A DNA stretch of 64,000 nt from Sphaerisporangium rufum (lineage in GTDB: Bacteria; Actinomycetota; Actinomycetes; Streptosporangiales; Streptosporangiaceae), in NCBI RefSeq assembly GCF_016863395.1, contig NZ_BOOU01000052.1, forward strand, positions 62,001 to 126,000, given 5' to 3'. Numbering within the stretch: position 1 is the first letter of the stretch; every line of letters begins with the position of its first letter. The position numbers and the translations under genes are program-made. Below are positions 7,520 through 24,797 of the stretch, in pieces. The notes beneath the pieces are model-generated. The model worked only from the letters and a program-made list of their open reading frames with translations, was not told the DNA's origin and did not search any database.

Positions 7520-8776
7520 ATGGGCGAGAAACTGGTCGTGGTCGGGCAGGGATATGTCGGCCTGCCGCTGGCCATGCGGGCAATCGCCGCCGGGTTCGAC
7601 GTCGTGGGGGTCGACGTGGACGATTGGCGGGTCAAGCGGCTGGACGCCGCCGAGTCCTACGTGGAGGACGTCGCCGACACCGTGCTCGCCGCCGCGCACC
7701 GGTCCGGCCGGTACCGGGCCACCACCGACTACGCCGCCGCCCGCGACTTCGACCTGTGCGTGATCACCGTGCCGACCCCGCTGCGCGAGGGCGCGCCCGA
7801 CCTGCGGCACGTCGCCGACGCCGCCCGGCGGATCGCCCCGCTGATCCGCCCGGGCGGCACCGTGATCCTGGAGTCGACCACCTACCCGGGCACCACCGAG
7901 GAGTACCTGCGCCCGCTGCTGGAGGATGGTTCCGGGCTGCGCACCCCCGAGGACTTCTTCCTCGGCTACAGCCCCGAGCGCATCGACCCGGGCAACACCC
8001 GCTGGCGGCTGGACAACACCCCCAAGGTGGTCTCCGGCCTCGACCCCGCGTCGCTGGCCCGCGTCGAGGCGTTCTACCGGCGGATCGTCGAACGGACGGT
8101 GCCGGTGTCCTCCACCCAGGTCGCCGAGCTGTGCAAGCTGCTGGAGAACACCTTCCGGCACGTCAACGTCGCGCTGGTCAACGAGCTGTCGATCTTCGCC
8201 GGGCAGCTCGGCATCGACGTGTGGGAGGCCATCGACGCCGCCTCCACCAAGCCGTTCGGCTACCTGCGGTTCACCCCCGGCCCGGGGGTGGGCGGGCACT
8301 GCCTGCCGATCGACCCGTCCTACCTGTCGTGGAAGGTGAAGCGCAGCCTCGGGCACAACTTCCGCTTCGTGGAGCTGGCCAACGACATAAACGACCACAT
8401 GCCCGCGCACGTCGTGCACCGGCTGACCCTGGCGCTCAACCGGCGCGGCCGGCCGGTCAACGGCAGCACCGTGCTGCTGCTCGGCCTGGCCTACAAGAAG
8501 AACACCGGCGACGTCCGCGAATCACCCGCGGTCGAGGTGGCCAAGTCGCTGCGCAAGCTGGGCGCCGAGGTGCGCGCCGCCGACCCGCACCTGGCCGACC
8601 AGGTGCCGCTCGACGTCACCATGGTGGCCGCCACCGAACGCGAGCTGGCCGCCGCCGACATCACCGTCGTGCTGACCGACCACGACGCGTTCGACTACGG
8701 GCTCGTCCAGCGCGCGGCGGGTCTGGTCTTCGACACCCGCAACCGCTGCCGCGGCCCCAACGTCGAGCGGCTGTGA
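7520..8776 (+). CDS. Nucleotide-sugar dehydrogenase (WecC/WbpA-type, UDP-N-acetylhexosamine 6-dehydrogenase)
   Basis: 418 residues. The N-terminal NAD domain has VVGQGYVGLP, the central domain has the Lys-Asn pair in CKLLENTFRHVN, and the catalytic Cys lies in GVGGHCLPIDP. These enzymes oxidise C6 of a UDP-sugar twice to the uronic acid. The LENTFRHVNVALVNEL and KPFGYLRFTPGPGVGGHCL stretches resemble UDP-GlcNAc/ManNAc dehydrogenases more than UDP-glucose dehydrogenase, so UDP-ManNAcA or UDP-GlcNAcA is the likely product (inference). ATG 7520 has AGGGAGG seven bases upstream; longer in-frame starts reach into the neighbouring gene and are unlikely. It opens the polysaccharide locus. Confidence 0.92.
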   Translation: MGEKLVVVGQGYVGLPLAMRAIAAGFDVVGVDVDDWRVKRLDAAESYVEDVADTVLAAAHRSGRYRATTDYAAARDFDLCVITVPTPLREGAPDLRHVADAARRIAPLIRPGGTVILESTTYPGTTEEYLRPLLEDGSGLRTPEDFFLGYSPERIDPGNTRWRLDNTPKVVSGLDPASLARVEAFYRRIVERTVPVSSTQVAELCKLLENTFRHVNVALVNELSIFAGQLGIDVWEAIDAASTKPFGYLRFTPGPGVGGHCLPIDPSYLSWKVKRSLGHNFRFVELANDINDHMPAHVVHRLTLALNRRGRPVNGSTVLLLGLAYKKNTGDVRESPAVEVAKSLRKLGAEVRAADPHLADQVPLDVTMVAATERELAAADITVVLTDHDAFDYGLVQRAAGLVFDTRNRCRGPNVERL

Positions 8777-8874: not shown

Positions 8875-11220
8875 ATGGCCAACACGCAGTCACAGTCCGG
8901 ATCCGGCGGCCCGGCCGCGACCGTTCCCGCCACCCGGCCGCCCATCACCGCCGCCCCGGCGGGCGGGGGGTGGCGGGCGGCGGCGCGGTGGCTGCCCCTG
9001 CTCTGCGCCGCGGGCGCCGCGGTCGCGGTGTTCCGCTGGACCGGCACCCCGGCCGGCGACATCGGGAAGTTCGCCGCCTACCTGGTGCTGTGCGTGGCCG
9101 CCCCCGGCACGCTGCTGGTGCGCGCCCTGTACCGCGGCCCGCGCACGTTCACCGAGGAGATCGCGCTGGGCACCGCCGCCGGGTACGCCGCCGAGGTGCT
9201 CGCCTACATCCCGGCCCGGGCGCTCGGCGCGCCGCTGGCCGTGCTGGCCTGGCCCGCGCTGACCTACCTCGCCTTCCTCGGCGTCCCCCGGCTGCGGCGG
9301 TACTGGCGGCACCAGGTCACCGCGCGCACGCCCGGGTGGTGCGCCTGGGCCATCGCCGCCACCGTCACCGGTCTGGTCGCCTACACCGGGGCCACCCACT
9401 TCCGCAACAACCCGCTGACCTGGCCGGCGGCCGGCGCGGGCGGGTACGACATGCCGTTCCACCTGGCACTGATCAGCGAGCTGCGCCACCACATGCCGCC
9501 GGCCATGCCCAGCGTGGCCGGCCAGCCGCTGCTCTATCACTGGTTCGTCTACGCGCACTCCGCCGCGGCCAGCTGGATCACCGGCGTGGAGCCGCTGGTG
9601 CTGCTGCTGCGCCTCGGGATGCTCCCGGTGAACGCCGCCTTCCTGGTCCTGATCGTGATGACCGCCCGGCGGCTGGCCGGTACCTGGGCGCTGACCGTGC
9701 CGGTGCTGGCCGGCAGCGTCCTGGTCAGCACCCCCAGCCTGTACGTGACCGCCAACATGGTGTTCGGCTGGGGCGGCGTGCAGTTCCTCGCCTGGCGCAG
9801 CCCCACCCAGATGTTCGCCGGGCTGCTGTTCGCCGCGCTCGTCATCCTGCTGGCCGACCTGCTCACCCGGCGCCGGGTGCCGGCCGGGCACTGGGTGCTG
9901 CTGGTGCTGTTCACCGTCACCGTCATGGGGGCAAAGGCGGTCTTCCTGCCGCTGCTGCTGGCCGGCCTGGCGGCCGTGGTCGCCGTGGGGCTGCTGCGCC
10001 GCCGCACGCCCGGCGCGCCGGTGCTCGCCCTGGCCGCGCTCACCGCCGGTTGCGTGGCGTTCGCCCAGTTGGTGCTGTTCGGCGGCGGCCGGCAGGGCAT
10101 GGTGCTCGCGCCGTTCGGCTTCGCGCCGAGCGCCTGGCACGACCTGGCCGGGCCCGGCCGCTCGGCCGCCGGAACCGCCGGCGTCGTCGCGCTGCACCTG
10201 CTGTGCTGGGCCATCCCCGCCTGCGGGCTGGTCGGGCTGCTGGCCGCGCCCCGGCTGGCGCTCCGGCCGCCGGTGGTGCTGATGCTCACCATGGTCGCCG
10301 CCGGACATGTGATGGTGGTGCTGTTCCAGCACCCCGGCCGCAGCCAGTTCTTCTTCCTGGACGCCGCCTACCCCTACCTGGTCATCCTGTCGGCGTACGG
10401 CGTCTGGATCCTGTGCCACCGGGCCGGGCTCGGTGGCCGGACGGCGCTCGCCGCCGGGGTCGCCGGGGTGGCGGTGGCCGGGGTGATCGCGCTGACCTGC
10501 GGGGTGCGGGTGCCGCTGGCGCTGGGACGGCCGGGCGCGCTGATCTTCCTGCCCTACGCGGTGCTGGTGGCCGTCACCGTCCTGGCCGCCGCGGTCCTCG
10601 CCCTTACCGCGGGCCGGCGCCGCGCGGTGGCGCTGACCACGGCCGCGGTGACCGGCATCGGCCTGGTGGCCTGCGCCTCGGCCATCGCACAGGCCCTGCC
10701 GGGCAAGATCGCCGCCAAGGGGGTGGACGGGGTCGGCAAGGCGTCGGTCGCGCAGGCCGCCGTGGTCCCGGTGGGTCTCATGGCGGCCGCCCGGTGGCTG
10801 CGCGACCACTCCGCCCCCGGCGACCTGGTCGCCACCAACTCCCACTGCCATTGGACGCAGGACGCGGACCCGTGCGACCCCCAGCAGTTCTGGGGCACCG
10901 GGCTGTCGGAGCGCCGCATGCTGGTCGAGGGCTGGTCCTACGCGCCGGCCGCCATCAAGCTGTGGCGCCCGGATTGGGCGGCCAACACCCCGGCGTTCTG
11001 GGACCCGGCGCTGCTGCGGCTGAACGACGCGGCCATCGAGCGGGCGGACGCCGCCTCGCTCGCCCGGCTGCGCGACCGGTACGGGGTGCGCTGGCTGCTG
11101 GCCGACACCCGGCGGGTCACCGCGCCGGACCGGCTCGCCCAGCTGGCCCCGCTCGCGTACCGCTCCGGGGTCTTCGCCGTCCACCGGGTGATCCCCGGTC
11201 CCGGGACAGGGTCGCGATAG
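8875..11220 (+). CDS. Polytopic membrane protein, GT-C-like, tandem paralogue 1 (type A)
   Basis: 781 residues. A Pro/Thr-rich cytoplasmic tail of about 35 residues precedes roughly a dozen hydrophobic helices and a soluble C-terminal domain of about 150 residues. The first large outer loop carries DMPFHLALISELRHH and YHWF, conserved in all four paralogues. The Asp and Glu ten residues apart recall the acidic catalytic loop of GT-C lipid-sugar-dependent glycosyltransferases (inference). Type A hallmarks are FGWGG followed by SPTQ, FGGGRQG, and HPGRSQFFF. The C-terminal domain has RWLRDHSAPGD, paired Cys, and ERRMLVEGW. No named family is recognised. No good ribosome site precedes ATG 8875. 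Confidence 0.85.
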   Translation: MANTQSQSGSGGPAATVPATRPPITAAPAGGGWRAAARWLPLLCAAGAAVAVFRWTGTPAGDIGKFAAYLVLCVAAPGTLLVRALYRGPRTFTEEIALGTAAGYAAEVLAYIPARALGAPLAVLAWPALTYLAFLGVPRLRRYWRHQVTARTPGWCAWAIAATVTGLVAYTGATHFRNNPLTWPAAGAGGYDMPFHLALISELRHHMPPAMPSVAGQPLLYHWFVYAHSAAASWITGVEPLVLLLRLGMLPVNAAFLVLIVMTARRLAGTWALTVPVLAGSVLVSTPSLYVTANMVFGWGGVQFLAWRSPTQMFAGLLFAALVILLADLLTRRRVPAGHWVLLVLFTVTVMGAKAVFLPLLLAGLAAVVAVGLLRRRTPGAPVLALAALTAGCVAFAQLVLFGGGRQGMVLAPFGFAPSAWHDLAGPGRSAAGTAGVVALHLLCWAIPACGLVGLLAAPRLALRPPVVLMLTMVAAGHVMVVLFQHPGRSQFFFLDAAYPYLVILSAYGVWILCHRAGLGGRTALAAGVAGVAVAGVIALTCGVRVPLALGRPGALIFLPYAVLVAVTVLAAAVLALTAGRRRAVALTTAAVTGIGLVACASAIAQALPGKIAAKGVDGVGKASVAQAAVVPVGLMAAARWLRDHSAPGDLVATNSHCHWTQDADPCDPQQFWGTGLSERRMLVEGWSYAPAAIKLWRPDWAANTPAFWDPALLRLNDAAIERADAASLARLRDRYGVRWLLADTRRVTAPDRLAQLAPLAYRSGVFAVHRVIPGPGTGSR

Positions 11221-11299
11221 GGACAAGGACCGGCAAGAAGATCATCGGGCCGCGGGCGTCCGGCCCGGCGGCCGGGAGGCCGGTCGCCAGACTACGGCC

Positions 11300-13633
11300 A
11301 TGACGACGACTCCACCCGCCGGTGATCCGGCACTGGCGGTCCGGGACGGCGCCGCGGGCCGGCCGGCCGGCCCGCGCCACCGGGCGCCGCGCGGCCTGCG
11401 CTCGGTGGCCCGCTCGCCCTGGCCGCCCGCCGTGCTGGTCGCCGCGCTCGCGGTGGCGGTGCTGCGGCACTACGGGACTCCGATCCGCGACCTGGCGGCG
11501 TTCGCCGGTTACCTGGCCGGGTGCGTGGCGGTGCCGGGCACGCTGCTGGTGCGGGCGCTGCATCCCGGCCGGCGCACCCGGCTGGAGGAGGTGGCGTTCG
11601 GCCTGGCGGTGGGGTACGCGATCGAGGTCCTCGCCTACCTGGCCGCCCGCGCCGCCGGCGCGCCGCTACTGGTCCTCGGCTGGCCGGCCGCCACCTACGC
11701 CGCGTTCCTGCTGATCCCCCGGCTGCGCCGGCACTGGCGCGGCACCCGCCCGCAGCGGGCGCCGCGGTGGTGGGCGTGGTTCCTGGCGCTGGTCGCCTGC
11801 TACGTGCTCGCCTCCAGCGCCGCCGAGTTCTTCCGCACCGCGCCGCTGCGCTGGCCGGCCGCCGGGACGATGCACTTCGACCTGCCGTACGCGCTCGGCA
11901 TGCTGGGCGAGCTGCGTCACCATCTGCCCCCGCAGCTGCCCATCGTGGCGGGTGAGCCGCTCTACTACCACTGGTTCGCCTTCGCGCACCTGGCCGCGGC
12001 GAGCTGGATCACCGGCGTGGAGCCGATGGTGCTGATGTTCCGGCTGGCCGCGTTGCCGCTGGTCGGAGTCTTCGTCGTCCTGCTCGCGGCGCTCGGCCGG
12101 CGGATCACCGGCTCGTTCGGCGGCGCGGCGCTGTGCGTGACGGCCACCTTCGCCATGGCGCTGCCCAGCCTGTACGCCAATGCCAACGGGCTGCTCATCT
12201 GGACGGGGGTCCAGCAACCGCCGTGGCGCGGCCCGACCACCACGTTCGCGATGATGCTGTTCGTGCCGTTCGTGCTGGTGCTGCTCGACCTGCTGGACGG
12301 CCGGCGCACCGGCCGGGCGACCTGGGCGCTGCTGGTCCTGCTCATCGTGGTGATCATGGGCGCCAAGGCCGTCTACCTGCCGCTGGCCCTGGCCGGGCTG
12401 GCGGCCGTCGCCGCCGCCCAGGCGGCCCGCCGCCGGCCGCCGTGGCGGGCGCTCGCGGCGTTCGCCCTGGCCGCCGCCTGCCTGTGCTACGCGCAGTTCG
12501 TGCTGCTGGGCGGGGCCCGGCTCGGGCTGTTCGTCCAGCCGCTGGCGGCGGCGCGCAAGACGTGGGCGGCGCTGGCCGGCGTCCCCGAACCCGAGGTCAC
12601 CACGGCGGCACTGCTGGCGTGCGCGGTGCTGTTCCTGCTGGGCTGGGCGGCCGGTTGGTGCGGCTCCCTCTGGCTGCTGCGCGGCACGCCCGGTACCCCG
12701 TTCACCGCCTTCACCGCCGGCACGGGGGTCGTCGCGGTGGGCGCGGCGCTGCTGCTCGGCAGCACCACCACCCTCAACCAGGGGTACTTCCTGATCTGTG
12801 CCGCGCCGCTGCTGTCGGTGCTCGCCGTACACGGGTTCCTCGTCCTGGCGCGGCGGCAGGGACTCGGCGCCAAGGCCTGCTGCGGCGCGCTGGCGGCCGG
12901 GGTGGTGGTGGCGGTGGCGGTGCGGGCGGCCTGCGGGGTGCGGGTGCCGCTGCCGCCCGGCACGCCGTGGCGGGCCCTGCTGCTGCCGTACGCCGTGGTG
13001 GCCGCCGTGGTGGCCCTGGCGGCCGCCGGGCTGTGGGCGGCGCGCCGGCGGCCGCGCCCGTGGGCTCTGCTGGTCGCGCTGGTGGTGGGGGTCGGGCCGG
13101 CCGGGGCCTGGCCGGCCCGGGCGATGCTGATGGTGCGGCCGGACGGCCGGGCCGGGCTGGAGAACGACCAGCGGGTCGCGCCGGCCGACGTGCCGCGCGG
13201 GCTGGCGGCCGCCGCGCGCTGGCTGCGGGACCACTCGGCGCCCGGCGATGTGCTGGCCACCAACGTGCACTGCCGCTGGGGCCACGAGTTGCCGTGCGAC
13301 ACCCGCCAGTACTGGCTGGCGGCGCTGGCCGAGCGCCGGGTGCTGGTGGAGGGCTGGGCGTTCACCCCGGTCAACCACGCCCGGTGGCGGCCGGGTGAGA
13401 TCCTGCAGCTGCGGCCGTTCTGGGATCCGGCCCGGCTGGCGGCCAACGACGCCGCCTTCACCGCGCCGAGCCCGGCCGCGGTGGCCCGGCTGCGCGACGG
13501 CTACGGCGTCCGCTGGCTGGTCGCCGACGAGCGCCGCCTGGCGCCGGGCACCCCGCCGGCCGGTGTCACCGGCCCGCTGTTCCGGGCCGGCGACATCGCC
13601 GTCTACCGGCTGCCCGCGGCTCCGGCCCGCTGA
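11300..13633 (+). CDS. Polytopic membrane protein, GT-C-like, tandem paralogue 2 (type B)
   Basis: 777 residues with the same plan as its neighbours: N-tail, about 12 helices, soluble C-terminal domain. The shared loop reads FDLPYALGMLGELRHH, then YYHWF. Type B hallmarks differ from type A: SLYANANGL followed by TGV in place of FGWGG/SPTQ, LLGGARLG, NQGYF, and C-terminal RQYWLAALAERRVLVEGW. C-terminal Cys residues in HCRWGHELPCD are probably disulfide-bonded outside the membrane. It starts 79 bp after paralogue 1 and ends 2 bp before paralogue 3, so types B and A are tightly coupled here. Confidence 0.85.
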   Translation: MTTTPPAGDPALAVRDGAAGRPAGPRHRAPRGLRSVARSPWPPAVLVAALAVAVLRHYGTPIRDLAAFAGYLAGCVAVPGTLLVRALHPGRRTRLEEVAFGLAVGYAIEVLAYLAARAAGAPLLVLGWPAATYAAFLLIPRLRRHWRGTRPQRAPRWWAWFLALVACYVLASSAAEFFRTAPLRWPAAGTMHFDLPYALGMLGELRHHLPPQLPIVAGEPLYYHWFAFAHLAAASWITGVEPMVLMFRLAALPLVGVFVVLLAALGRRITGSFGGAALCVTATFAMALPSLYANANGLLIWTGVQQPPWRGPTTTFAMMLFVPFVLVLLDLLDGRRTGRATWALLVLLIVVIMGAKAVYLPLALAGLAAVAAAQAARRRPPWRALAAFALAAACLCYAQFVLLGGARLGLFVQPLAAARKTWAALAGVPEPEVTTAALLACAVLFLLGWAAGWCGSLWLLRGTPGTPFTAFTAGTGVVAVGAALLLGSTTTLNQGYFLICAAPLLSVLAVHGFLVLARRQGLGAKACCGALAAGVVVAVAVRAACGVRVPLPPGTPWRALLLPYAVVAAVVALAAAGLWAARRRPRPWALLVALVVGVGPAGAWPARAMLMVRPDGRAGLENDQRVAPADVPRGLAAAARWLRDHSAPGDVLATNVHCRWGHELPCDTRQYWLAALAERRVLVEGWAFTPVNHARWRPGEILQLRPFWDPARLAANDAAFTAPSPAAVARLRDGYGVRWLVADERRLAPGTPPAGVTGPLFRAGDIAVYRLPAAPAR

Positions 13634-13635
13634 CC

Positions 13636-16014
13636 ATGGCCGACACTTCGCCCTCACCCGGGCTGCTGCCACCGGTCGCGCCGGTCCGCGGGCCGGTCCC
13701 GCCGCCCCGCCGCGCGGAACCCGCGCCCGCCCGGCGGCCTGCCCGGAGGTCCGCTCGGCGGCCCACCCGGCGGCTCACCCGGTGGCCGCCGCCGTGGGTG
13801 CCCGGGGTCACGGCGCTCGGCGGCACGGTGGCCGTCCTGCTGCGCCACGGCACTCCGGTGCACGACATGGCGCTGTTCTCCGGATATGTCGTCCTATACC
13901 TGGCGTTGCCCGGCACCCTGCTGGCCCGCGCGCTGTATCCGGGCCGGCGGACCCGGGCCGAGGACGCCGCGCTCGGCCTCGCCATCGGCCACGCCGCCGA
14001 GCTGCTGGTCTACCTCCCGGCCCGCGCCCTCGGCGCGCCGCGGCTGATCCTGATCTGGCCGGCCGCGACCGTACTGGCCTTCCTCGCCGTGCCCCGGCTG
14101 CGCCGGCACTGGCGGGGCGGGCCACGGCCCGCCGTCCCCGGATGGTGGCCGTACTGGCCGGCCGCGATCATGATCGTCTTGCTGCTGACCAGCGCCACGG
14201 GGTACTTCGGCGCCACGCCGCTCGCCTGGCCCGCGCTCGCGCGCATTCCCACCGACGTTCCCTTCCACCTCGCGCTGGCCGGCGAGCTGCGCCACCATCT
14301 GCCGCCCGGCATGCCCGGCGTCGCCGGCGAACCCCTCTCCTACCACTGGTTCGCCCACGCCCACCTGGCCGCGGCCTCCTGGGCGACCGGCGTCGAACCG
14401 CTGGTCCTGCTCACCCGCCTGGACGCGCTCCCCATGGTCGCCGCGCTGCTCGTGCTGCTCGCGGCCACCGCGCGGCGGATCGTCGGCACCTGGACCGGCG
14501 CGGGTGCCGCGCTGCTCGGCGCGGTCTTCATCGGCACGCCCGGCATGTACCTGACCACTCGAATGATCTTCGGTTGGGGCGGCATCCCCGGGGAGGCCTG
14601 GACCAGCCCCACCCAGACCTACGCCGCGCTGCTGTTCGCCCCGGCGTTCCTCATACTGCTGGACCTGCTGGACGGCCGCCGGTCCGGTGCCCGCCCGTGG
14701 CTGCTACTCGGCGCGCTGCTGGTGGCCGTGATGGGGGCGAAGTCCACCTTCCTGCCGGTGCTGCTGGCCGGGCTGCTCGCGGTGCTCGCGGCCGCCGCGC
14801 TCGCCGGACGCGGAACACATCGGCCGGCCCTGGTCGCGGCCGGCCTGTGCGCCGCCCTGCTGCTGTTCGCCCATCTGGTGCTCTTCGGCGGCGGCCGGCA
14901 AGGGATCGTGCCCGCGCTGTTCTCGTTCGTCACCGAGACACCGGAAAAGCTCGGCGGCCGGCCGCCACTGGCCGGCCTGGCGGCCAGTGGCGGCCTGGGC
15001 GCGCTGTTCCTGCTGTGCTGCGCCTTGACCTGCTGCGGGGCCGCGGGCCTGATCGGCGACCGGCGGGAACTCGCCCGGCCGGTGGTGCCGCTCGTCCTCG
15101 GCATGGCCGGCGCCGGGTACGCCTGCCTGCTGCTGGTCACCCATCCGGGAGCGAGCCAGTACTTCTTCCTGTTCTCCGCCTATCCCTACCTGGCCATCCT
15201 GTGCGTGCACGGCGTGCGGCGCCGGTGCCTGCGCTCGGGGACGCCGCGGCGGCAGGCCGGATGCGCCCTGGCCGCCGGGCCGCTGCTGGTCCTGGCCATC
15301 GCCGCCGCGTGCCGCGTGCGGGTACCGCTGCCGGCCGGCTCGTCCGGATACCTGGTGTTCCTGCCCTACCTGCTGCTCTGCCTGGCGATCGCCGCGGGCG
15401 GCCTGGCCGTGACCCTGGCCGCCGGCCCGCGGCGGGCGGCCGCGCTCACGCTGGCCTGCTGCGCCGGCGCCGGTCTGCTGGGCTGCCTGCCCGGCCGGCT
15501 GCTGACCTTCGCCGCCGGCCGGACGGCCGACCGCGCCCCGGCGGTACCGCCCGGCACCAGGCCGCCGGCCGACCCGGTCCCGCCGGGCGCGGCGCCGGCC
15601 GCCCGCTGGCTGCGCGACCACTCGGCGCCCGGCGACCTGGTCGCGACCAACACCCACTGCCGGTGGGGGCACGAAAACCCGTGCCAGAGCAACCAGTTCT
15701 GGCTGTCGGGGCTGGCCGAGCGCCGCATGCTGCTGGAGGGGTGGGCCTACTCCCCCACCGGCATCACCGGCTGGCGGCCCGGCCGGCCCTACAACGGCGA
15801 CCCGTTCTGGGACCGCCGGCTGCTGGCCGTCAACGACGCGGCGACCGTCGCCGGATCGGCCGCCGCGCTCGCCGAGCTTCGTGACCGGCACGGCGTGCGC
15901 TGGCTGCTGGTGGACGAGCGGCGGACCGCCCCCGGCGCGCCCCTCGCCGAGCACGCGCGGCTGTCGTTCCGCACCGGCGGGTACGCCGTCTACCGGCTCC
16001 GTCCGGCCCGCTGA
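13636..16014 (+). CDS. Polytopic membrane protein, GT-C-like, tandem paralogue 3 (type A)
   Basis: 792 residues, starting two bases after the stop of paralogue 2. The N-tail is Arg/Pro-rich. The outer loop reads TDVPFHLALAGELRHH, then SYHWF. It shares the type A set with paralogue 1: FGWGG followed by SPTQ, FGGGRQG, HPGASQYFF and ERRMLLEGW. The C-terminal domain has HCRWGHENPCQ and a closing beta-rich segment GVRWLLVDERR. A role in transferring or polymerising lipid-linked sugar outside the membrane fits the locus, but no activity can be read directly. Confidence 0.85.
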   Translation: MADTSPSPGLLPPVAPVRGPVPPPRRAEPAPARRPARRSARRPTRRLTRWPPPWVPGVTALGGTVAVLLRHGTPVHDMALFSGYVVLYLALPGTLLARALYPGRRTRAEDAALGLAIGHAAELLVYLPARALGAPRLILIWPAATVLAFLAVPRLRRHWRGGPRPAVPGWWPYWPAAIMIVLLLTSATGYFGATPLAWPALARIPTDVPFHLALAGELRHHLPPGMPGVAGEPLSYHWFAHAHLAAASWATGVEPLVLLTRLDALPMVAALLVLLAATARRIVGTWTGAGAALLGAVFIGTPGMYLTTRMIFGWGGIPGEAWTSPTQTYAALLFAPAFLILLDLLDGRRSGARPWLLLGALLVAVMGAKSTFLPVLLAGLLAVLAAAALAGRGTHRPALVAAGLCAALLLFAHLVLFGGGRQGIVPALFSFVTETPEKLGGRPPLAGLAASGGLGALFLLCCALTCCGAAGLIGDRRELARPVVPLVLGMAGAGYACLLLVTHPGASQYFFLFSAYPYLAILCVHGVRRRCLRSGTPRRQAGCALAAGPLLVLAIAAACRVRVPLPAGSSGYLVFLPYLLLCLAIAAGGLAVTLAAGPRRAAALTLACCAGAGLLGCLPGRLLTFAAGRTADRAPAVPPGTRPPADPVPPGAAPAARWLRDHSAPGDLVATNTHCRWGHENPCQSNQFWLSGLAERRMLLEGWAYSPTGITGWRPGRPYNGDPFWDRRLLAVNDAATVAGSAAALAELRDRHGVRWLLVDERRTAPGAPLAEHARLSFRTGGYAVYRLRPAR

Positions 16015-16269
16015 CCGGAGCCCGCCGGGGCGCGCGCCGGCAATCGCGGCCGCACCCTGCCGGCGGCTCGCCGGGTGGCGCGGACGGGAGCCGGCCGCAC
16101 TCGGGTGGCCGGCCGCCGGCCGGTCGCCCGGTGAGGGCCGGCACCCGGCGGGCGGAGGCCGCGCGTGCGCCGCGCCGCATCTTTGTGGCGGCACAAGGCC
16201 GGGTAAGGACCTGGCCTGCGGCGGAGCGGTGACCTGGGACGGCGGCGACCCGATGATCACACTACGCGC

Positions 16270-18693
16270 ATGGCCAGTACTCCGCCGATGGGCGAACCCA
16301 CCGCCGCCGCGACCGGCACCACCGCCGCACCCGACCGTCCGCCGGGCACCGCCGCGCCGGCACCCGGGACACGACGGCCGCCCGGGACATGGTGGCCGTT
16401 CGGAAGACGGTGGCCGTCCGGAAGACGGTGGCCGTCCGGGACCGGCCGGCGGATGCTCGGCTCGGGCTGGACACCGGCGGCGGTGGTGCTCGCCGCGACG
16501 GTCGCGGTGCTGCTCCGCTACGGCACCCCGCCCCGGGACATCGCGGCGTTCGCCGGGTACGCCATCCTCGGGCTGGCGCTGCCGGGCACGCTGCTGGTGC
16601 GCGCCCTGTACCGGGGCCGGCGCACCCTCGGCGAGGAGATCGCGCTCGGCACCGCGCTCGGCTACGCGGTCGAGCTGCCGGTCTACGCCGCCGCGCGGGC
16701 CGCCGGGGCGCCGATGCTGGTCGCCGGCTGGCCGCTGCTCACCTGCGCCGTGTTCCTGCTGGTGCCCGGGCTGCGCCGGCACTGGCGCGCCGCGCCGGCC
16801 CGCCGGGCCCCGGCCCGCTGGTCGTGGTTCCTGGCCGCGATCCTGCTCTACCTGCTGGCGAGCACCGCGCTGCTGTCCTTCCGGTCGACTCCGCTCACCT
16901 GGCCGGCGCTCGGCACCGCGCAGTTCGACCTGCCCTTCAACCTGGGGCTGGTCGCCGAACTGAAGCATCACCTGCCGCCGCAGACCCCGACGGTGGCCGG
17001 CGAGCCGCTGCTCTACCACTGGTTCTTCGCCGCGCACCTGGGCGCGGCGAGCTGGCTGACCGGGACCGAGCCGCTGGTGCTGCTGGCCCGGCTCGGCATG
17101 CTGCCGGTGGCGGCGGTGTACGTGCTGCTGCTCGGCCTGCTCGCCCGGCGGGTGACCGGCTCGCGGGCCGGCGGGGCGCTCGGCGTGCTCGGCGCGCTCT
17201 TCCTGGCGCTGCCCAGCCTGTACGCCAACGCCAACGGCCTGGTCATGTTCACCGGCGTTCCCTACCTGCCGTTCCCGAGCCCGAGCACGACGTTCGGCGC
17301 GATGCTGTTCGTCCCGGTCGTGCTCCTGGTGACCGACCTGCTCGCCGGCCGGTGCGCCGGCCGGGCCTGCTGGGTGCTGCTCGCGGCGTTCCTGGCCGCC
17401 GTCATGGGAGCCAAGGCGACCTACCTGCCGGTGCTGGCCGCCGGACTGGCCGCGGTGGCCGGATTGGACCTGCTCCGGCGCCGGCCGCCGTCCCGGGCGG
17501 TGCTCGGCGCGCTGGGCATGACCGCCGGCGGCCTGCTGTTCGCCCAGCTGGTGCTGTTCGGCGGCACGCGCAACGGGCTGGTGGTCGTCCCGCTGTCGGT
17601 GGCCCGGCGGACCTGGGGCATGCTCGCCGGGCTCGGCGGCCGGACCGACCTGCCGCTGTCGGCGCCGGTGCTCGGCGTCACGCTGATCTTCGCCGCCGGG
17701 TGCGCGATGGCCTGGTGCGGCGTCCTCGGCCTGCTGCGCCGGCCGGCCGTGGCCCGCCGGCCCGAGGTGGTGCTGCTGCTCGGCATGGGGGCCGCCGGGG
17801 TGGCGGCGACGCTGCTCCTCGGCACCGCGACCGGCGCGTTCAACCAGGCGTACTTCTACCACGCGGTGACCCCGTACCTGGCGATCATGACCGCGCTGGG
17901 GTTCGGCGTGCTGCTGCGCCGCGAGCGGATCCCGGCGGTCGCGGCGGCGTGCGCGGCGGCCGGCGGGCTGGCGGCGGCGGTGGGGATCCGGGTGATCTGC
18001 GGGGTGCGGGTGCCGGTGCCGCCCGGCCAGGGCGGCCTGGTGTTCCTGCCGTACCTGGTGCTGGCCGCCGTCGCGGCCCTCGCCGCCGGCGGGATGCTCG
18101 CGCTGCGCGAGCGGCCGCGCCCGTGGGCGCTGCTGGTGGCGGCGGCGGTCGGCGCGGGCTCGCTCGGCGCCTGGCAGGCCCGGGTGTGGCTGCTCGCCCA
18201 CCCCGGCGCCGAGCCGCGGATGTACCAGGACCACCGGCCGCCGCCCGAGCTGGTGCCGGGCGGCGCGCTCGCCGTGGCGCGCTGGCTGCGCGCCCATTCG
18301 GGTCCGGGCGATGTGGTGGCGACCAACGTGTACTGCCGGTGGGGGGTGGAGAACCCCTGCGACAGCCGGCAGTACTGGCTGTCGGCGCTGGCCGAGCGCC
18401 GGGTGCTGGTGGAGGGCTGGACGTACGCCACGCCGAACCTCGCCCGCTGGCGACCCGGGGAGATCCTGGAGCACCGGCCGCACTGGGACCGGCAGCGGAT
18501 CGCGCTGAACGACACGGTCTTCGCCGACCCCACCCCGGCCGCGGTGGACCGGCTGCGCCAGGAGTACCGGGTGCGCTGGCTGGTGGCCGACGAGCGCTAC
18601 CTGCCGCCCGGCGTCCACCTGGGCGACGTGGCCGGCTTCCGGCTCCGGGCCGGCGACTGGGCGGTCTACCAGGTACCCGGTCCGGCGTCCTGA
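16270..18693 (+). CDS. Polytopic membrane protein, GT-C-like, tandem paralogue 4 (type B)
   Basis: 807 residues, longest of the four because of an N-tail that contains a three-copy six-residue repeat (WPxGRR). The outer loop reads FDLPFNLGLVAELKHH, then YHWF. Type B features match paralogue 2: SLYANANGL, LFGGTRNG, NQAYFY and RQYWLSALAERRVLVEGW. It is 255 bp after paralogue 3, so it may have its own promoter. It is followed at once by a long hairpin, which ends this four-gene block before the convergent dTDP-sugar genes. Confidence 0.85.
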   Translation: MASTPPMGEPTAAATGTTAAPDRPPGTAAPAPGTRRPPGTWWPFGRRWPSGRRWPSGTGRRMLGSGWTPAAVVLAATVAVLLRYGTPPRDIAAFAGYAILGLALPGTLLVRALYRGRRTLGEEIALGTALGYAVELPVYAAARAAGAPMLVAGWPLLTCAVFLLVPGLRRHWRAAPARRAPARWSWFLAAILLYLLASTALLSFRSTPLTWPALGTAQFDLPFNLGLVAELKHHLPPQTPTVAGEPLLYHWFFAAHLGAASWLTGTEPLVLLARLGMLPVAAVYVLLLGLLARRVTGSRAGGALGVLGALFLALPSLYANANGLVMFTGVPYLPFPSPSTTFGAMLFVPVVLLVTDLLAGRCAGRACWVLLAAFLAAVMGAKATYLPVLAAGLAAVAGLDLLRRRPPSRAVLGALGMTAGGLLFAQLVLFGGTRNGLVVVPLSVARRTWGMLAGLGGRTDLPLSAPVLGVTLIFAAGCAMAWCGVLGLLRRPAVARRPEVVLLLGMGAAGVAATLLLGTATGAFNQAYFYHAVTPYLAIMTALGFGVLLRRERIPAVAAACAAAGGLAAAVGIRVICGVRVPVPPGQGGLVFLPYLVLAAVAALAAGGMLALRERPRPWALLVAAAVGAGSLGAWQARVWLLAHPGAEPRMYQDHRPPPELVPGGALAVARWLRAHSGPGDVVATNVYCRWGVENPCDSRQYWLSALAERRVLVEGWTYATPNLARWRPGEILEHRPHWDRQRIALNDTVFADPTPAAVDRLRQEYRVRWLVADERYLPPGVHLGDVAGFRLRAGDWAVYQVPGPAS
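16391..16444 (+). repeat. 18-bp coding tandem repeat, three copies
   Basis: The unit GGTGGCCGTYCGGAAGAC is repeated at 16391, 16409 and 16427 (the last copy diverges at its end), encoding a W-P-x-G-R-R repeat in the cytoplasmic N-tail of paralogue 4. Confidence 0.8.
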
Positions 18694-18946: not shown

Positions 18947-19921
18947 TCAGCGGCCGCGCTTAAGGGGCCGCCACCAGGCCTGGTGGTCGCGGTACCAGCC
19001 GACCACCTCGGCCAGTCCCCGGTCGAAGCCGACGGCGGGCAGGAACCCGATGGCGCGCAGCCGGCCGCTGTCCACCGCGTACCGGCGGTCGTGGCCGGGC
19101 CGGTCGGGCACCATGTCCACCCTGTCCCAGCCGGCGCCCACCGCGGCCAGCAGCCGATCGACCAGCTCCCGGTTGGTCAGCTCGACGCCGCCGCCGATGT
19201 TGTACACCTGCCCCGGCTCCCCCTTCTCCAGCACCAGCTGGATGCCCCGGCAGTGGTCGTCGACGTGAAGCCACTCGCGGACGTTCATCCCGTCGCCGTA
19301 CAGCGGGACCCGCTCGCCGTCCAGCAGCCGGGTGACGAACAGCGGGATCAGCTTCTCTGGGTACTGGTAGGGCCCGTAGTTGTTGGAGCAGCGGGTGATC
19401 CGCACGTCCAGGCCGTGGGTGCGGTGGTAGGCGCGGCACAGCAGGTCGGCGCCGGCCTTGGCCGCCGAGTAGGGCGAGTTCGGCAGCAGCGGCTCGTCCT
19501 CGGTCCAGGCGCCGGCCGCGATCGACCCGTACACCTCGTCGGTGGACACCTGGACGAAGGTGCGCACCCCGCCCTCCAGCGCGGCCTGCAGCAGCCGCTG
19601 GGTGCCGAGCACGTTGGTGGTGACGAAGTCGCCCGCGCCGGTGATCGACCGGTCGACGTGCGTCTCGGCGGCGAAGTTGACCACCACGTCGTGCCCGGGG
19701 ACGGTCTCGGCCAGCAGCGCGGCGTCGGTGACGTCGCCGTAGCGGAACGCGTAGCCGGGGTGGCGGGCCACCGGGGCGAGGTTGGCGAGGTTCCCGGCGT
19801 AGGTGAGGCGGTCCAGCACGGTGACGTGCGCGTTCTCGTACCCCGGGTAGGCGCCGCGCAGCAGCGAGCGCACGTAGTTGGACCCGATGAAACCGGCGCC
19901 GCCGGTGACCAGGACCTTCAC
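18947..19921 (-). CDS. rfbB: dTDP-glucose 4,6-dehydratase
   Basis: 324 residues. Extended SDR with GGAGFIGSNY for NAD, STDEVYG (the Asp-Glu pair typical of 4,6-dehydratases), YSAAKAGAD as the YxxxK motif, and NNYGPYQYPEKLIP for dTDP-sugar binding. It converts dTDP-glucose to dTDP-4-keto-6-deoxyglucose, the branch point for rhamnose, Fuc4N and other deoxysugars. GTG 19921 overlaps the upstream rfbA stop in a GTGA. No rmlC or rmlD is in the window, so rhamnose synthesis is not the obvious destination. Confidence 0.95.
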   Translation of the reverse strand: MKVLVTGGAGFIGSNYVRSLLRGAYPGYENAHVTVLDRLTYAGNLANLAPVARHPGYAFRYGDVTDAALLAETVPGHDVVVNFAAETHVDRSITGAGDFVTTNVLGTQRLLQAALEGGVRTFVQVSTDEVYGSIAAGAWTEDEPLLPNSPYSAAKAGADLLCRAYHRTHGLDVRITRCSNNYGPYQYPEKLIPLFVTRLLDGERVPLYGDGMNVREWLHVDDHCRGIQLVLEKGEPGQVYNIGGGVELTNRELVDRLLAAVGAGWDRVDMVPDRPGHDRRYAVDSGRLRAIGFLPAVGFDRGLAEVVGWYRDHQAWWRPLKRGR

Positions 19922-20985
19922 ACCTTCACCTGGATCCGGCTGTGGTCGCCGACCATGAGCTCGTGGGTGTTGCTCACGCCCGCCGCCCGGCTGACCTCGA
20001 CGTTGCGGCCGATGAGCGAGTGCGCGATGCGCGAGACGCCGTCGACCGACGAGCCGTCCAGCACGATGGAGTACTCGATCTCGGCGTTCTGCAGCACGCA
20101 GCCGGCGCCGATCGAGGTGAACGGCCCCACGTAGGAGGAGATGATCTTGGCGTCCGCGCCGACCACGACCGGGCCGCGCAGCACCGAGTTCTCCACCACG
20201 GCGCCCGGTTCGACCACCACCCGCCCGGTGATCTCGCTGAGCCGGTCGACGGTGCCGGCCACCCCCGGCTCGACGCGTTCCAGCACCATGCGGTTGCACT
20301 CCAGGATGTCCTGGAGGCGGCCGGTGTCCTTCCAGTAGCCGCTCACCATGTGCGAGCGCACGGTGTGCCCGTTCTCGATGAGCCACTGGATGGCGTCGGT
20401 GATCTCCAGCTCGCCGCGCGCGGACGGGCGGATCTCGCGGACCGCGCGGTGCACGGCCGGGGAGAAGGCGTAGACGCCGACGATCGCCAGGTCGCTGCGC
20501 GGGTGCTCGGGCTTCTCCTGCAGCGCGCGGATCTCGCCGCCCGGCCCGAGCTCGGCGATCCCGTAGTACTGCGGCTCGGCCACCCGGGTCAACAGGATGC
20601 GCGCGTCGCAGGCCTCGCGGGTGAACGCCTCCACCAGGCCGCCGATGCCGCCCACCAGGAAATTGTCGCCCAGATACATGACGAAGGGGTCGCCGGCCAG
20701 GAAGTCGCCGGCGATGAGCACGCAGTGCGCCAGGCCGAGCGGGGCCGGTTGCTCGATGTAGGTCACCTCCAGGCCGAAGCGGGCGCCGTCCCCCACCGCG
20801 GCGCGGATCTCGGCGCCGGTGTCGCCGACGACGATGCCGCATTCGCGGATGCCGGCGTCCCGGATCGCCTCCAGCCCGTAGTAGAGCACCGGTTTGTTGG
20901 CGACCGGGACCAGTTGCTTGGCGGAGGTGTGCGTCAGGGGCCGCAGCCGCGTGCCCTTGCCGCCCGCCAGGACGAGTGCCTTCAC
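19918..20985 (-). CDS. rfbA: Glucose-1-phosphate thymidylyltransferase, long form
   Basis: 355 residues. The nucleotidyltransferase signature LAGGKGTRLRPLT and PVANKPVLYY lie at the N-terminus, with YLGDNF and the sugar-binding VEKP-like segment (LQEKPEHP) further on. The C-terminal 110 residues form left-handed beta-helix hexapeptide repeats (VVEPGAVVENSVLRGPVVVG), absent from the common form of about 290 aa. This long form is the StrD-like type known from actinobacterial deoxysugar clusters. It makes dTDP-glucose for rfbB. GTG 20985 has AAAGGA upstream and overlaps the gtrA-like stop by four bases. Confidence 0.94.
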   Translation of the reverse strand: MKALVLAGGKGTRLRPLTHTSAKQLVPVANKPVLYYGLEAIRDAGIRECGIVVGDTGAEIRAAVGDGARFGLEVTYIEQPAPLGLAHCVLIAGDFLAGDPFVMYLGDNFLVGGIGGLVEAFTREACDARILLTRVAEPQYYGIAELGPGGEIRALQEKPEHPRSDLAIVGVYAFSPAVHRAVREIRPSARGELEITDAIQWLIENGHTVRSHMVSGYWKDTGRLQDILECNRMVLERVEPGVAGTVDRLSEITGRVVVEPGAVVENSVLRGPVVVGADAKIISSYVGPFTSIGAGCVLQNAEIEYSIVLDGSSVDGVSRIAHSLIGRNVEVSRAAGVSNTHELMVGDHSRIQVKV

Positions 20986-21464
20986 GTCATGTCCTTTCCA
21001 GGGTCTCGCCGCCGGTCACGGAAGGTCCAGAACCGGTGGGTGAGGTAGTTCAGCGGGACGAACCCGACGAGCACCACCGCCTGGGCGGCCAGCACCGGCA
21101 GGTGGGCGGCCCCGACGAGCGGCGGCAGCCCGGCGAGCGAGCAGGCCAGGAAGCCCAGCCCCACCGCGTAGAAACGCAGATATCCGGCGATCCATGATTT
21201 CCGGCCGCCACGGAACACCACCAGGCGATACCAGGGATACACGGCCACCAATGTGATGAAATGACTGGCAACGACTACGCAAAGATAGGAAACCGAATCC
21301 CGAAAAATATGCAATCCGGCGGCCAGGATGGCGTAGTAGAGCAGCGCGGTCACCCCGCCGCTCACCAGGTATGTGATGAGGTGGCCGCCGAGCGCCGGGG
21401 TCAGGTGCCGCACTCGCGAATACGTCTTCCGGCCGCGACCGGTCCGACTACCGGTTTCGACCAT
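20982..21464 (-). CDS. GtrA family membrane protein
   Basis: 160 residues with four transmembrane helices, ending in the family motif NYLTHRFWTF. GtrA-like proteins are thought to flip or assist polyprenyl-phosphate sugars for extracytoplasmic glycosylation. ATG 21464 has GGGGGA six bases upstream and is preferred over the in-frame ATG at 21497, which has none. The gene is translationally coupled to rfbA (GTGA overlap) and faces a GT2 transferase across an 89-bp promoter region; GtrA and GT2/GtrB proteins commonly work together. Confidence 0.88.
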   Translation of the reverse strand: MVETGSRTGRGRKTYSRVRHLTPALGGHLITYLVSGGVTALLYYAILAAGLHIFRDSVSYLCVVVASHFITLVAVYPWYRLVVFRGGRKSWIAGYLRFYAVGLGFLACSLAGLPPLVGAAHLPVLAAQAVVLVGFVPLNYLTHRFWTFRDRRRDPGKDMT

Positions 21465-21553
21465 ACGAATTCCCCCGAATCGCGGTCGGACAGTCATCTC
21501 ACGAATAGCTTAATGGGCCAATGCCGGATGAACGGCGAACAGCGGGGGAACTG

Positions 21554-22489
21554 ATGTCGGTGTCGGTCGTCATTCCGTGTTACCGGTCCGCGCGGACCCT
21601 GGACGAGCTGGTGACCAGATCGGTGGCGGTGCTGCGCTCGCTGGCCGTGCCGCACGAGGTGATCCTGGTGGTGGACGGCAGTCCGGACGACACCTGGAGC
21701 GTGGCCGCGGCGCTGGCCCGCCGGTTCCCCGCGGTCCGCGCCGTGCACCTGTCCCGCAACTACGGCCAGCACAACGCGCTGGTGGCCGGCATCCGGGAGG
21801 CCGAGCACGACGTCATCGTCACGATGGACGACGACCTGCAGCACCCGCCCGAGCAGATCCCGCTGCTGCTGGCCGCGCTGGCCGGCGACCGGCTGGACCT
21901 GGTCTACGGGCTGCCGCACGAGGAGGAGCACGGCGCGGTGCGCAGCCTCGTCTCCCGGACCGTGAAGGCCGGCATGTCCGGCATGCTGGGCATCCGGTCC
22001 GCCCGGATGATCAGCGCGTTCCGCGCCTTCCGCACCCACCTGCGGCACGGCTTCGACCGGTTCGCCGGGCCGCACGCCTCGGTGGACGTGGCACTGTCCT
22101 GGGCCACCACCCGGGTCGGCTCGGTCGGCGTGCACATGGACCGCCGCCGCGACGGGCGGTCCACCTACACGCTGCGCATGCTGGTCCGGCACACCGCCAA
22201 CATGCTGTTCGGCTACAGCACGATCCCGCTGCGGGTGGCCAGCTACCTGGGCTTCATGGTCGGGGTGTTCGGGCTGGTGATGGGCGCGGTGGTGCTGTGG
22301 AGCTTCGCGGTCGGCAACACCACCGTGGTCGGCTTCACCAGCCTGGCCTCGATGATCACCCTGTTCTCCTCGGCCCAGCTGATGGCGGTCGGCCTGCTCG
22401 GCGAGTACGTCGGCCGCATCCACGCCAGCGGCATGGGCCGCCCCACCTACGTCATCCGCGAACGCATCGGCTCCTCGGTATCGGTCTGA
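21554..22489 (+). CDS. GT2 polyprenyl-phosphate sugar transferase (GtrB/ArnC/DPM1-like)
   Basis: 311 residues. The GT-A domain begins SVVIPCYRSARTLDEL, has VDGSPDDT, and the metal-binding DDDLQHPPE. Two C-terminal hydrophobic helices (about 235-260 and 270-295) are typical of transferases that load a sugar onto undecaprenyl phosphate. ATG 21554 has CGGGGGAA upstream; an ATG 33 bp earlier lacks one. With GtrA it would supply an external sugar for side-branch glycosylation. Its stop codon lies inside the mirror-image terminator shared with the next, convergent gene. Confidence 0.92.
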   Translation: MSVSVVIPCYRSARTLDELVTRSVAVLRSLAVPHEVILVVDGSPDDTWSVAAALARRFPAVRAVHLSRNYGQHNALVAGIREAEHDVIVTMDDDLQHPPEQIPLLLAALAGDRLDLVYGLPHEEEHGAVRSLVSRTVKAGMSGMLGIRSARMISAFRAFRTHLRHGFDRFAGPHASVDVALSWATTRVGSVGVHMDRRRDGRSTYTLRMLVRHTANMLFGYSTIPLRVASYLGFMVGVFGLVMGAVVLWSFAVGNTTVVGFTSLASMITLFSSAQLMAVGLLGEYVGRIHASGMGRPTYVIRERIGSSVSV

Positions 22490-22539
22490 CCCGGCCGGGC
22501 CGGGATCGGCCGGGCGCCGGTCCCGGCCCGGCCGGGTCA
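22487..22539. terminator. Mirror-symmetric bidirectional terminator containing both stop codons
   Basis: A perfect 19-bp inverted repeat (22487-22505 and 22521-22539, 15-base loop). It begins with the TGA of the GT2 gene and ends with the complement of the TGA of the acetyltransferase gene, so the two stop codons pair with each other. Confidence 0.8.
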
Positions 22540-23307
22540 GGTCGCGGGCAGGAGGCCGGGGCGGACCAGGTGGAGGGTGTAGAAGGTGCTCACCGGCTCG
22601 AAGCCGTAGCGGGCCCAGGCCCGCTGCACCCGGGTGTGGTGGCCCTGGGTGGAGATCACCACCTCGGTGCCGCCGCCGGCGAGCGCGCGCTCCTCCACCG
22701 CGCGCAGCACGTGGGCGTACAGCCCTTGGGCCTGCCGGCCGGGCACCACTCCGGCCAGCAGGATCTCGGTGCGCGGCCCGTCTTCGGCCACGGTGGCGAG
22801 CCCGAACGTCCCGGAGCGGTCGACGGCGGTCAGGCAGTCGCCGGCCGCGGCCGACCGGCCGGCCCACTCGGCATAGCCGGCCTCGGCGCCGGCCGGGTCG
22901 AACAGCGGGTTCGCCAGGTAGTGACCGGCGTAGCCGGCGAAGATCTCCGCGGCCAGCCGCTCGGCGGTCGCGGGGTCGCGGGGCTCGGCGACCCGCAGGC
23001 CGGGCAGCGGATCGGGCGCGCGGCCGCGGCCGGCGGGCAGCCGCCAGTAGACCAGCGAGTCGGCCAGCAGGACGGTACGGCCGAGCGCGGCCAGCCCGGC
23101 GGCCCAGCCGGCCAGGTCCGCCGGGTAGCGCAGGATGATCACGTCCGCGGCGGAGTCCAGCACGGCCGCCCGCACCTGGGCGAACGCCTCCGGGGCGCTG
23201 CCGTCCGGCACGGTGAGCCGCTCGACCGGCCGGCCGAACCTGGCGGTGTCGTGCGGGGACGGGCAGGCGCGCACCTCCGGCGCGGCCATCACCTCCTGCC
23301 AGGCCAT
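22537..23307 (-). CDS. GNAT acetyltransferase, probably acts on dTDP-4-amino sugar (WecD-like)
   Basis: 256 residues. The N-terminal third has no clear homology by eye; the C-terminal half has GNAT features: LLAGVVPGRQAQGLY (CoA-binding loop) and a final strand-helix ending WARYGFEPVSTFYTLHL, the usual 'GF...' close. Its ATG overlaps the stop of the RffA-like aminotransferase by one base (TGATG), so the two enzymes are made together. WecD/RffC N-acetylates dTDP-Fuc4N after RffA. By context this is the likely role, but substrate assignment is inference. Confidence 0.82.
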   Translation of the reverse strand: MAWQEVMAAPEVRACPSPHDTARFGRPVERLTVPDGSAPEAFAQVRAAVLDSAADVIILRYPADLAGWAAGLAALGRTVLLADSLVYWRLPAGRGRAPDPLPGLRVAEPRDPATAERLAAEIFAGYAGHYLANPLFDPAGAEAGYAEWAGRSAAAGDCLTAVDRSGTFGLATVAEDGPRTEILLAGVVPGRQAQGLYAHVLRAVEERALAGGGTEVVISTQGHHTRVQRAWARYGFEPVSTFYTLHLVRPGLLPAT

Positions 23308-24446: not shown

Positions 24447-24797
24447 GTTCGAAGAGGTCACAGCGTCAATGAACACCAGCCGCCGCGGCACGACGGGGCG
24501 CGACGGCCGTGCTTGGACAAGTTCTTGCGCAACGCAGGCGCCGCCCAGATACCCGCGCCGCGCGCCATCTCGCGGCCCTCCGGTGGGATGGCGGCGGCCC
24601 GCGGGACAGGCCGCCCGCGCGGCAGGCGGCGCCGCGGCGGTTCCGGGCGATCCGGGAGCGGCGGGGGCGGCCCGATGCGCGGCCCGATGGGCGGTAAAGG
24701 TGCGGTCAGCGACCGGCCCCGGTTCGGCAGCGGCCCGGGTGCCGGACTCCGGGCGGTGCCCGGCCCGTGTACCTGTGTTCTTTCGGAGGTGGGGCCC
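24447..24797. other. 351-bp divergent intergenic region
   Basis: It contains two adjacent short palindromes, CTTG-GA-CAAG (24512-24521) and TTGCGCAA (24525-24532), which may be operators. The methyltransferase ribosome site GGAGG is at the right end. No credible small gene. Confidence 0.45.

Follow-up and report, generated by a model that had tools for sequence, protein, structure and literature searches.

Four tandem GT-C-fold membrane proteins in Sphaerisporangium rufum, probable extracytoplasmic transferases of a lipid-linked amino sugar

A 64,000-nucleotide stretch of the Sphaerisporangium rufum genome (contig NZ_BOOU01000052.1, positions 62,001 to 126,000, hereafter the window) carries a tandem array of four genes for large multi-span membrane proteins, which are probably extracytoplasmic glycosyltransferases (GTs) of the GT-C class moving a lipid-linked 4-amino-6-deoxy sugar to an outer glycan. 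The four are paralogous, lie in A-B-A-B order with a pattern of duplication, show the GT-C fold class in the predicted models of A and B, share a set of conserved residues, and are linked to genes for a GT2 transferase, a GtrA flippase and the transaminase WecE; from these observations we infer the activity, the identity of the sugar, the acceptor and the division of labor between A and B. The array consists of:

8875..11220, + strand: protein 1, type A, GT-C-fold protein by its predicted model, 781 amino acids (aa); AlphaFold2 predicted local distance difference test (pLDDT) 91.4, top Foldseek matches GT-C; loop residues D192, E202, Y221-H222-W223 and R246 conserved, also Cys658 and Cys667.
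11300..13633, + strand: protein 2, type B, 777 aa; AlphaFold2 pLDDT 90.2; Foldseek matches DPY19, STT3/oligosaccharyltransferase (OST) and AftA.
13636..16014, + strand: protein 3, type A, 792 aa; within the A clade (100/100), with protein 1 at 86/74.
16270..18693, + strand: protein 4, type B, 807 aa; with protein 2 at 99/95.

An earlier note, made from the sequence by itself, had described four tandem paralogous open reading frames (ORFs) here in A-B-A-B order, and this arrangement was confirmed, including positions. The spacers between consecutive genes are 79, 2 and 255 bp. In near full-length alignments the identity is 54.3% between proteins 2 and 4, 49.5% between 1 and 3, and 44.3-46.2% for cross-type pairs. 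A search of the same genome with protein 1 returned the same four places only and no fifth copy. The outer-loop pattern D[LMV]P..L....EL[RK]HH followed by YHWF is found in all four proteins. The motif sets that the note had listed for proteins 1/3 and 2/4 are likewise present in the window, but they are not diagnostic beyond this genome: with slightly loosened patterns, the full set of five A or four B patterns occurs in none of the 93 other rows of the tree described below, and, within the genus, the 10 A proteins are set apart from the 12 B proteins by just four alignment columns, counting those with ≥90% agreement inside a type and no residue common to both. The motif sets were dropped as A/B markers outside this genome.

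The two types were examined by phylogeny. A quick tree of 97 rows comprised the four proteins and 93 relatives from the loci of a collection scan; family ORFs with <560 matched residues were left out, as were duplicates and the second copies from the window itself. Proteins 1 and 3 fall inside an 8-row Sphaerisporangium clade (98), and proteins 2 and 4 group together (99) within a 12-row clade (100). In a careful 28-row tree, the 10 A proteins (100/100) and the 12 B proteins (80/86) are each recovered, with the pairings 2+4 and 1+3 at the supports given above. Clades 1+2 and 3+4, the grouping that ran counter to the earlier note, were rejected on this tree by the approximately unbiased (AU) test (P = 6e-41 and 6e-7, respectively). 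The sister relation of proteins 1 and 3 is favored, not proven. In the trees made here type A is confined to this genus, and the clade surrounding B also includes a few Nonomuraea and Microtetraspora.

Gene order in two Sphaerisporangium relatives bears on how the array arose. One of them (locus L005) reads dehydrogenase-A-B-RmlB-RmlA-GtrA-GT2-GNAT-WecE-methyltransferase-sulfotransferase, which equals the order in the window except for its single A-B pair. The other (L024) is alike, GtrA not being scored there and the methyltransferase and sulfotransferase being listed in reverse order. Since both relatives keep the gene order with one pair, the A-B unit appears to have been doubled in this genome. 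In-place duplication of the two-gene unit, one of two explanations offered in the note, is thus most likely as the simplest history, and it is supported by the rejection of 1+2 and 3+4 and by the grouping of 2+4, the support for 1+3 not being decisive.

AlphaFold2 models of proteins 1 and 2, built from 72 sequences, reached predicted TM-scores (pTM) of 0.92 and 0.91 and were compared with the PDB by Foldseek. All matches at E ≤ 1e-3 are GT-C proteins: two for the A model, both DPY19 (best 2.1e-4), and eight for the B model, namely DPY19, STT3/OST and AftA, followed by noise. Ranks 3-8 of the A model are DPY19, ArnT (1.5e-3), translocon-bound STT3 and AglB, and the probability for ranks 1-8 is 0.92-1.00 before noise sets in. 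In 9n9j and 8b6l, STT3 is chain I. The predicted models of A and B are thus multi-span with a GT-C fold, which bears out the resemblance that the note had drawn from the acidic loop.

In the protein 1 model, inspection of the helices shows the fifth long helix leading into the large acidic loop (177-222); the arginine-rich stretch ahead of this helix suggests that the loop is on the outer side. The C-terminal end forms an outer alpha/beta domain with ERR.L.EGW and a conserved cysteine pair (Cys658 in 93/97 members, Cys667 in 95/97). Elsewhere, D192 is retained in 95/97 members, E202 in 93/97, W223 and R246 in 97/97, and K354 in 99%. D192, which sits in a loop of the kind expected for a GT-C catalytic acid, is a likely candidate for the catalytic residue. 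All four proteins have D-[MLV]-P in this loop, and DE occurs in 3 of the 22 genus members.

Neither the four proteins nor 10 divergent relatives passed a cut-off in Pfam or NCBIfam, and the note's statement that they belong to no named family holds for these two databases. YfhO (PF09586) gave no match over cut-off in the same two sets. WsfD (NF051875), a glycan hexose transferase, scored 21-22 bits, where the cut-off is 80, in 2 of the 10 divergent relatives and matched none of the four. Sequence searches of solved structures found no relative: one returned nothing, and another returned just two designed proteins, with E values of 0.54 and 2. A literature search, mostly at the level of titles and abstract openings, found no account of this GT-C family.

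The genes flanking the array encode a candidate supply route for the donor:

7520..8776, + strand: nucleotide-sugar dehydrogenase, like UDP-N-acetylglucosamine/N-acetylmannosamine 6-dehydrogenase (TIGR03026 402.7 bits, cut-off 189.8; specific equivalogs below cut-off).
18947..19921, - strand: RmlB, deoxythymidine diphosphate (dTDP)-glucose 4,6-dehydratase (TIGR01181 413.3 bits, cut-off 365.1).
19918..20985, - strand: RmlA, glucose-1-phosphate thymidylyltransferase, long form (TIGR01208 443.1 bits, cut-off 320.25).
20982..21464, - strand: GtrA-family flippase (PF04138 45.6 bits, cut-off 26.1).
21521..22489, + strand: GT2, ArnC/PgfS-like polyprenyl-phosphate glycosyltransferase (PF00535 91.8 bits).
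22537..23307, - strand: GNAT-like protein, where WecD is expected (PF00583 E 0.0053, 17.5 bits, weak).
23307..24503, - strand: WecE, dTDP-4-amino-4,6-dideoxygalactose transaminase (NF008687 489.6 bits, cut-off 375; TIGR02379 444.5 bits, cut-off 434.85; start codon not fixed).

The dehydrogenase is directly upstream of protein 1 and has the same place in L005 and L024. RmlA, RmlB and WecE, which belong to the pathway to dTDP-linked N-acetylated 4-amino-4,6-dideoxygalactose (Fuc4NAc) of the enterobacterial common antigen (ECA) type, all score over their NCBIfam cut-offs. The whole genome holds two PF04138 (GtrA) matches, one of them in this locus. The pairing of GT2 with GtrA is characteristic of systems in which a polyprenyl-phosphate monosaccharide is made, flipped and used (PMC8035078, PMC5836110, PMC11127046).

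The proposed mechanism would start in the cytoplasm, where RmlA, RmlB and WecE with the GNAT-like acetyltransferase would make a dTDP-4-amino-4,6-dideoxy sugar, probably dTDP-Fuc4N (the unacetylated form) or dTDP-Fuc4NAc. The ArnC-like GT2 would transfer it onto undecaprenyl phosphate, giving undecaprenyl-P-Fuc4N or -Fuc4NAc, and GtrA would bring the lipid-linked sugar to the outer face, where each GT-C protein would pass it to a glycan. The acceptor is probably the polysaccharide to which the WecA- and Wzz-like genes and the Wzx/Wzy candidates of this locus belong. A and B would differ in acceptor or linkage, and with the A-B unit duplicated in place, all four transferases would draw on a single donor line.

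The collection scan kept the best 80 of 98 encoded relatives, which gave 67 distinct loci (each a family gene with flanks up to 10 kb) from 58 organisms of the Streptosporangiaceae, Thermomonosporaceae and Micromonosporaceae and one Streptomyces. By strict scores, WecE, GT2 and GtrA are all in the locus in 22/58 organisms and none of the three is in 30/58. Locus-seeded profiles detected GT2 in 44/58 organisms (41 at >200 bits), GtrA in 36/58 and both in 36/58, and 20 control stretches of the S. rufum genome (~339 kb) gave no GtrA and a single GT2 (170.6 bits). Detection is favored here because both profiles were built up iteratively from the very loci that they were used to search, and in 3 of the 44 organisms the GT2 score is no more than 88-183 bits, a range that one control stretch reaches.

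WecE lies inside the locus in 25 organisms. Of the 30 organisms empty by strict scores, 29 (all but that of L022) were searched genome-wide, and WecE was found in 17: in 13 its contig is as long as that of the family locus and its coordinates adjoin that locus, the family gene is inside the WecE region in 3 more, and L020/L174 has WecE with no linkage to the family gene. These 17 WecE regions contain GT2 in all cases and GtrA in 15. Altogether 42 of the 54 organisms determined have WecE, and in 41 of these it is linked to a family gene; L006, L012 and L032 (GT2/GtrA, but no WecE in the locus) and L022 were outside the genome-wide WecE search. Among 41 genomes searched for both, 12 have the family and WecE, 3 the family only, 1 WecE only and 25 neither, which is not independent evidence because 11 of the 12 double-positive genomes are of one genus.

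Two organisms without WecE (L007, L021) carry another DegT-type aminotransferase with GT2, GtrA, RmlA and RmlB, and the GT2 of L007 is PgfS/ArnC-like by NCBIfam. In these cassettes (L007, 12.4-18 kb; L021, 0-5.9 kb, the latter with a NeuD-type acetyltransferase below cut-off) an alternative amino-sugar set replaces WecE while GT2, GtrA, RmlA and RmlB are retained. A suggested reading is donor swapping. In eight organisms (Nonomuraea, Spongiactinospora, Streptosporangium) a GT2-GtrA fusion frame is right behind, or overlaps the end of, the family gene, at about 12.1-13.6 kb in L040, L042, L044, L051, L052, L055, L058 and L059 (called starts 12226 in L040 and 12210 in L058). Both Pfam domains pass in the L058 fusion, and the GT2 domain only in that of L040. 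Five of the eight (L044, L051, L052, L058, L059) are without WecE, and the other three have WecE beside other family copies. Such a fusion and a GT-C gene may form a two-gene minimal transmembrane glycosylation system.

In the family of Planosporangium, GT2 is directly upstream of the family gene in 9/9 chosen genomes, which were hand-picked from 75, not drawn at random (the GT2 of L204 was read from a translated frame, not scored). Across these cases the partner GT2 seems to vary less than the sugar pathway does. In four Actinoplanes-like genomes (L198-L201), the GT2-GT-C pair adjoins dihydrofolate reductase and thymidylate synthase (named by reading), a conserved position that suggests a general role.

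Several findings weigh against the proposed route. Neither GT2 nor GtrA is in the flanks in 14/58 organisms; in 11 of the 14 a WecE region away from the flanks contains GT2 and GtrA, L022 was outside that search, and L041 and L067, for which no genome-wide GtrA/GT2 search was made, lack both genes in their flanks. WecE is absent from 12/54 organisms, and the second family copy of genome G546 (L207) has no GT2 beside it. In the window, the GT2 is below the specific cut-offs (NF007986 ArnC, 159 bits; NF047588 PgfS, 125 bits), and the GNAT assignment is below the PF00583 cut-off of 20.7 and has no NCBIfam match. Structural scores are modest, with TM-scores by query (TMq) of 0.21-0.41 and root-mean-square deviations of 10.9-18.0 for the eight top matches per model, and TM-scores by target (TMt) of 0.23-0.50 for Foldseek matches. 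Modest TM-scores are usual for remote fold matches. Protein 1 has Q at position 217, where 93/97 members have E. The classic DXD/DXE motif is absent, the loop having D-x-P with E ten residues further; YfhO homologs are likewise reported to be without a conserved DXD.

A distinctly less probable account keeps the same GT-C enzymes and gives them another polyprenyl-linked donor, the WecE pathway serving only a cytoplasmic Wzx/Wzy repeat unit, as it does in the enterobacterial common antigen. The GT4, WecA- and Wzz-like genes in the locus fit this account, as do the absence of WecE from 12 of 54 organisms, which implies that the donor is not identical everywhere, and the different DegT-type aminotransferase beside GT2, GtrA, RmlA and RmlB in L007 and L021; the dehydrogenase beside protein 1 points to a uronic acid as well. 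However, WecE travels with GT2 and GtrA in the WecE regions counted above, and such GT2/GtrA pairs handle single-sugar polyprenyl phosphates (PMC8035078).

An extension of the preferred route appears improbable at present: these proteins would constitute a separate GT family whose donors, in many actinomycetes, are undecaprenyl-P-linked 4-amino-6-deoxy sugars, and the duplicated A-B set would build an alternating side chain outside the membrane from one lipid-linked sugar through two linkage specificities, with no Wzy polymerase.

The note had also offered obligate A/B pairs to explain the alternation. Yeast Pmt1/Pmt2 form obligate heteromeric pairs, and a similar arrangement of A with B is very doubtful. 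All 10 same-genus genomes searched have family matches, and by tree placement eight of them have exactly one A and one B (G001, G002, G004, G005, G006, G007, G008, G010), which together with the probable duplication of the A-B pair as one unit would agree with pairing. However, two genomes (G003, G009) have B or B-like proteins without A, A adjoins B in only two of the eight (G002 = L024, G007 = L005), and type A was seen in this genus alone. Pairing as a rule was rejected on account of the B-only genomes and the rare adjacency. Over a 300-residue stretch, 12 copies from the same-genus genomes are identical to copies in Sphaerisporangium loci.

There is very little to commend Wzy- or WaaL-like polymerases or ligases of the surface glycan in place of single-sugar transferases, for although the four are large multi-span proteins within a polysaccharide locus where the Wzx/Wzy candidates match no Pfam family over cut-off, they themselves match none either, their top fold matches are GT-C transferases, and several genomes have GT2 or a GT2-GtrA fusion as the sole neighbor. 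Wzy/ligase identity was rejected for want of Pfam support and for the different fold found by Foldseek. The polymerases that the note had entertained are neither shown nor needed, the locus having WecA- and Wzz-like genes and a Wzy-like candidate (by reading, without a Pfam match).

Beyond WecE, the locus continues with methyltransferase, sulfotransferase and asparagine-synthase-like genes, then GT4 genes, Wzx/Wzy candidates and epimerases; it also has a DUF4012 gene and the following features:

25520-26434: sulfotransferase in the polysaccharide locus (PF13469 90.7 bits).
29507-32142: two adjoining membrane proteins, by reading Wzx-like and Wzy-like, neither with a Pfam match above cut-off.
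35765..36805, + strand: WecA/TagO-like polyprenyl-P sugar-1-phosphate transferase (PF00953 104.9 bits).
36809..38206, + strand: Wzz/BY-kinase-like chain length regulator (PF02706 29.0 bits, PF13614 43.6 bits).

The WecA/TagO-like protein is a possible primer of the acceptor glycan, and the sulfotransferase hints that the glycan may be sulfated, by analogy with the proposal made for wps-1 of Actinoplanes missouriensis. On the other side of the array, at 5566-7107 (- strand), there is a secreted-looking 513-aa protein with no Pfam match, a relative of which is beside the locus in L004.

With one query protein and E ≤ 1e-10, family matches were found in 75/150 genomes of the family of Planosporangium (L056), 17/59 genomes of another actinomycete family (f35) and 9/296 genomes of a class sample, the S. 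rufum genome counted. Three small actinomycete genomes of f35 (G366, G373, G342) have 5-6 matches each, some being pieces of one gene. A family of ~780 residues, found in half of those 150 genomes, thereby gains a fold class, a set of partners and a testable reaction. The findings point to Fuc4N-type single-sugar lipid carriers and outward glycan decoration in sporangium-forming actinomycetes, and the GT2-GtrA fusions behind a GT-C gene represent a two-gene system small enough for rebuilding in the laboratory.

The note had seen its best candidate for an undescribed system here, which is not indicated: no undescribed principle is needed because the neighborhood matches known GT-A/GtrA/GT-C glycosylation systems. 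To our knowledge, the probable 4-amino-6-deoxy sugar donor is unusual for such systems. GtrA/GtrB/Gtr, CsbB-GtcA-YfhO and GtlA-GtcA-GtlB each combine a GT-A (GT2) polyprenyl-P transferase, a GtrA flippase and a GT-C gene (PMC8035078, PMC5836110), and GT2, GtrA and GT-C occur together in the window and in relatives. One flippase for several GT-C enzymes has a precedent in CflA with three GT-A/GT-C pairs (PMC8035078). In contrast to these systems, the GT-C proteins here are of another sequence family (no PF09586 match), they probably use a 4-amino-6-deoxy sugar as donor, and a single GT2/GtrA set stands beside four GT-C genes.

In fold, by Foldseek, the proteins resemble DPY19 (7zli), ArnT (5f15), AftA (8if8) and STT3/AglB (3wak), and the C-terminal part resembles the C-terminal globular domain of AglB (3vu0; probability 0.94-0.99, but E 0.30-0.40). 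ArnT uses a polyprenyl-linked 4-amino sugar. The proteins differ from all of these in identity (9-14% in alignments), in the acidic loop after the fifth long helix and in their length of ~780 aa. The three-component pentofuranose systems of GT136 resemble the proposed route in having a lipid-linked single sugar, a flippase and a GT-C with a proposed loop aspartate, but they use polyprenyl-P-ribose from a UbiA-type enzyme and a MATE flippase (PMC11127046).

The closest biology is that of the GtrA-dependent sporangium glycans of A. missouriensis (PMC13390465, 2026): its gsf cluster is GtrA-dependent, belongs to a sporangium-forming actinomycete and has a nucleoside diphosphate (NDP)-sugar dehydrogenase. 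A gsf-like GtrA cluster (L208) includes a multi-span protein of 526 aa at 15468-17048. As the AMIS_70420 equivalent, it was rejected as a family member, giving no family-profile match up to E 10 with filters off. The two family genes of G546, inferred to be the A. missouriensis genome, lie away from the gsf cluster. The principle is known; particular to this array are a GT-C family uncurated in Pfam and NCBIfam and the presence of four GT-C genes on one GT2/GtrA set.

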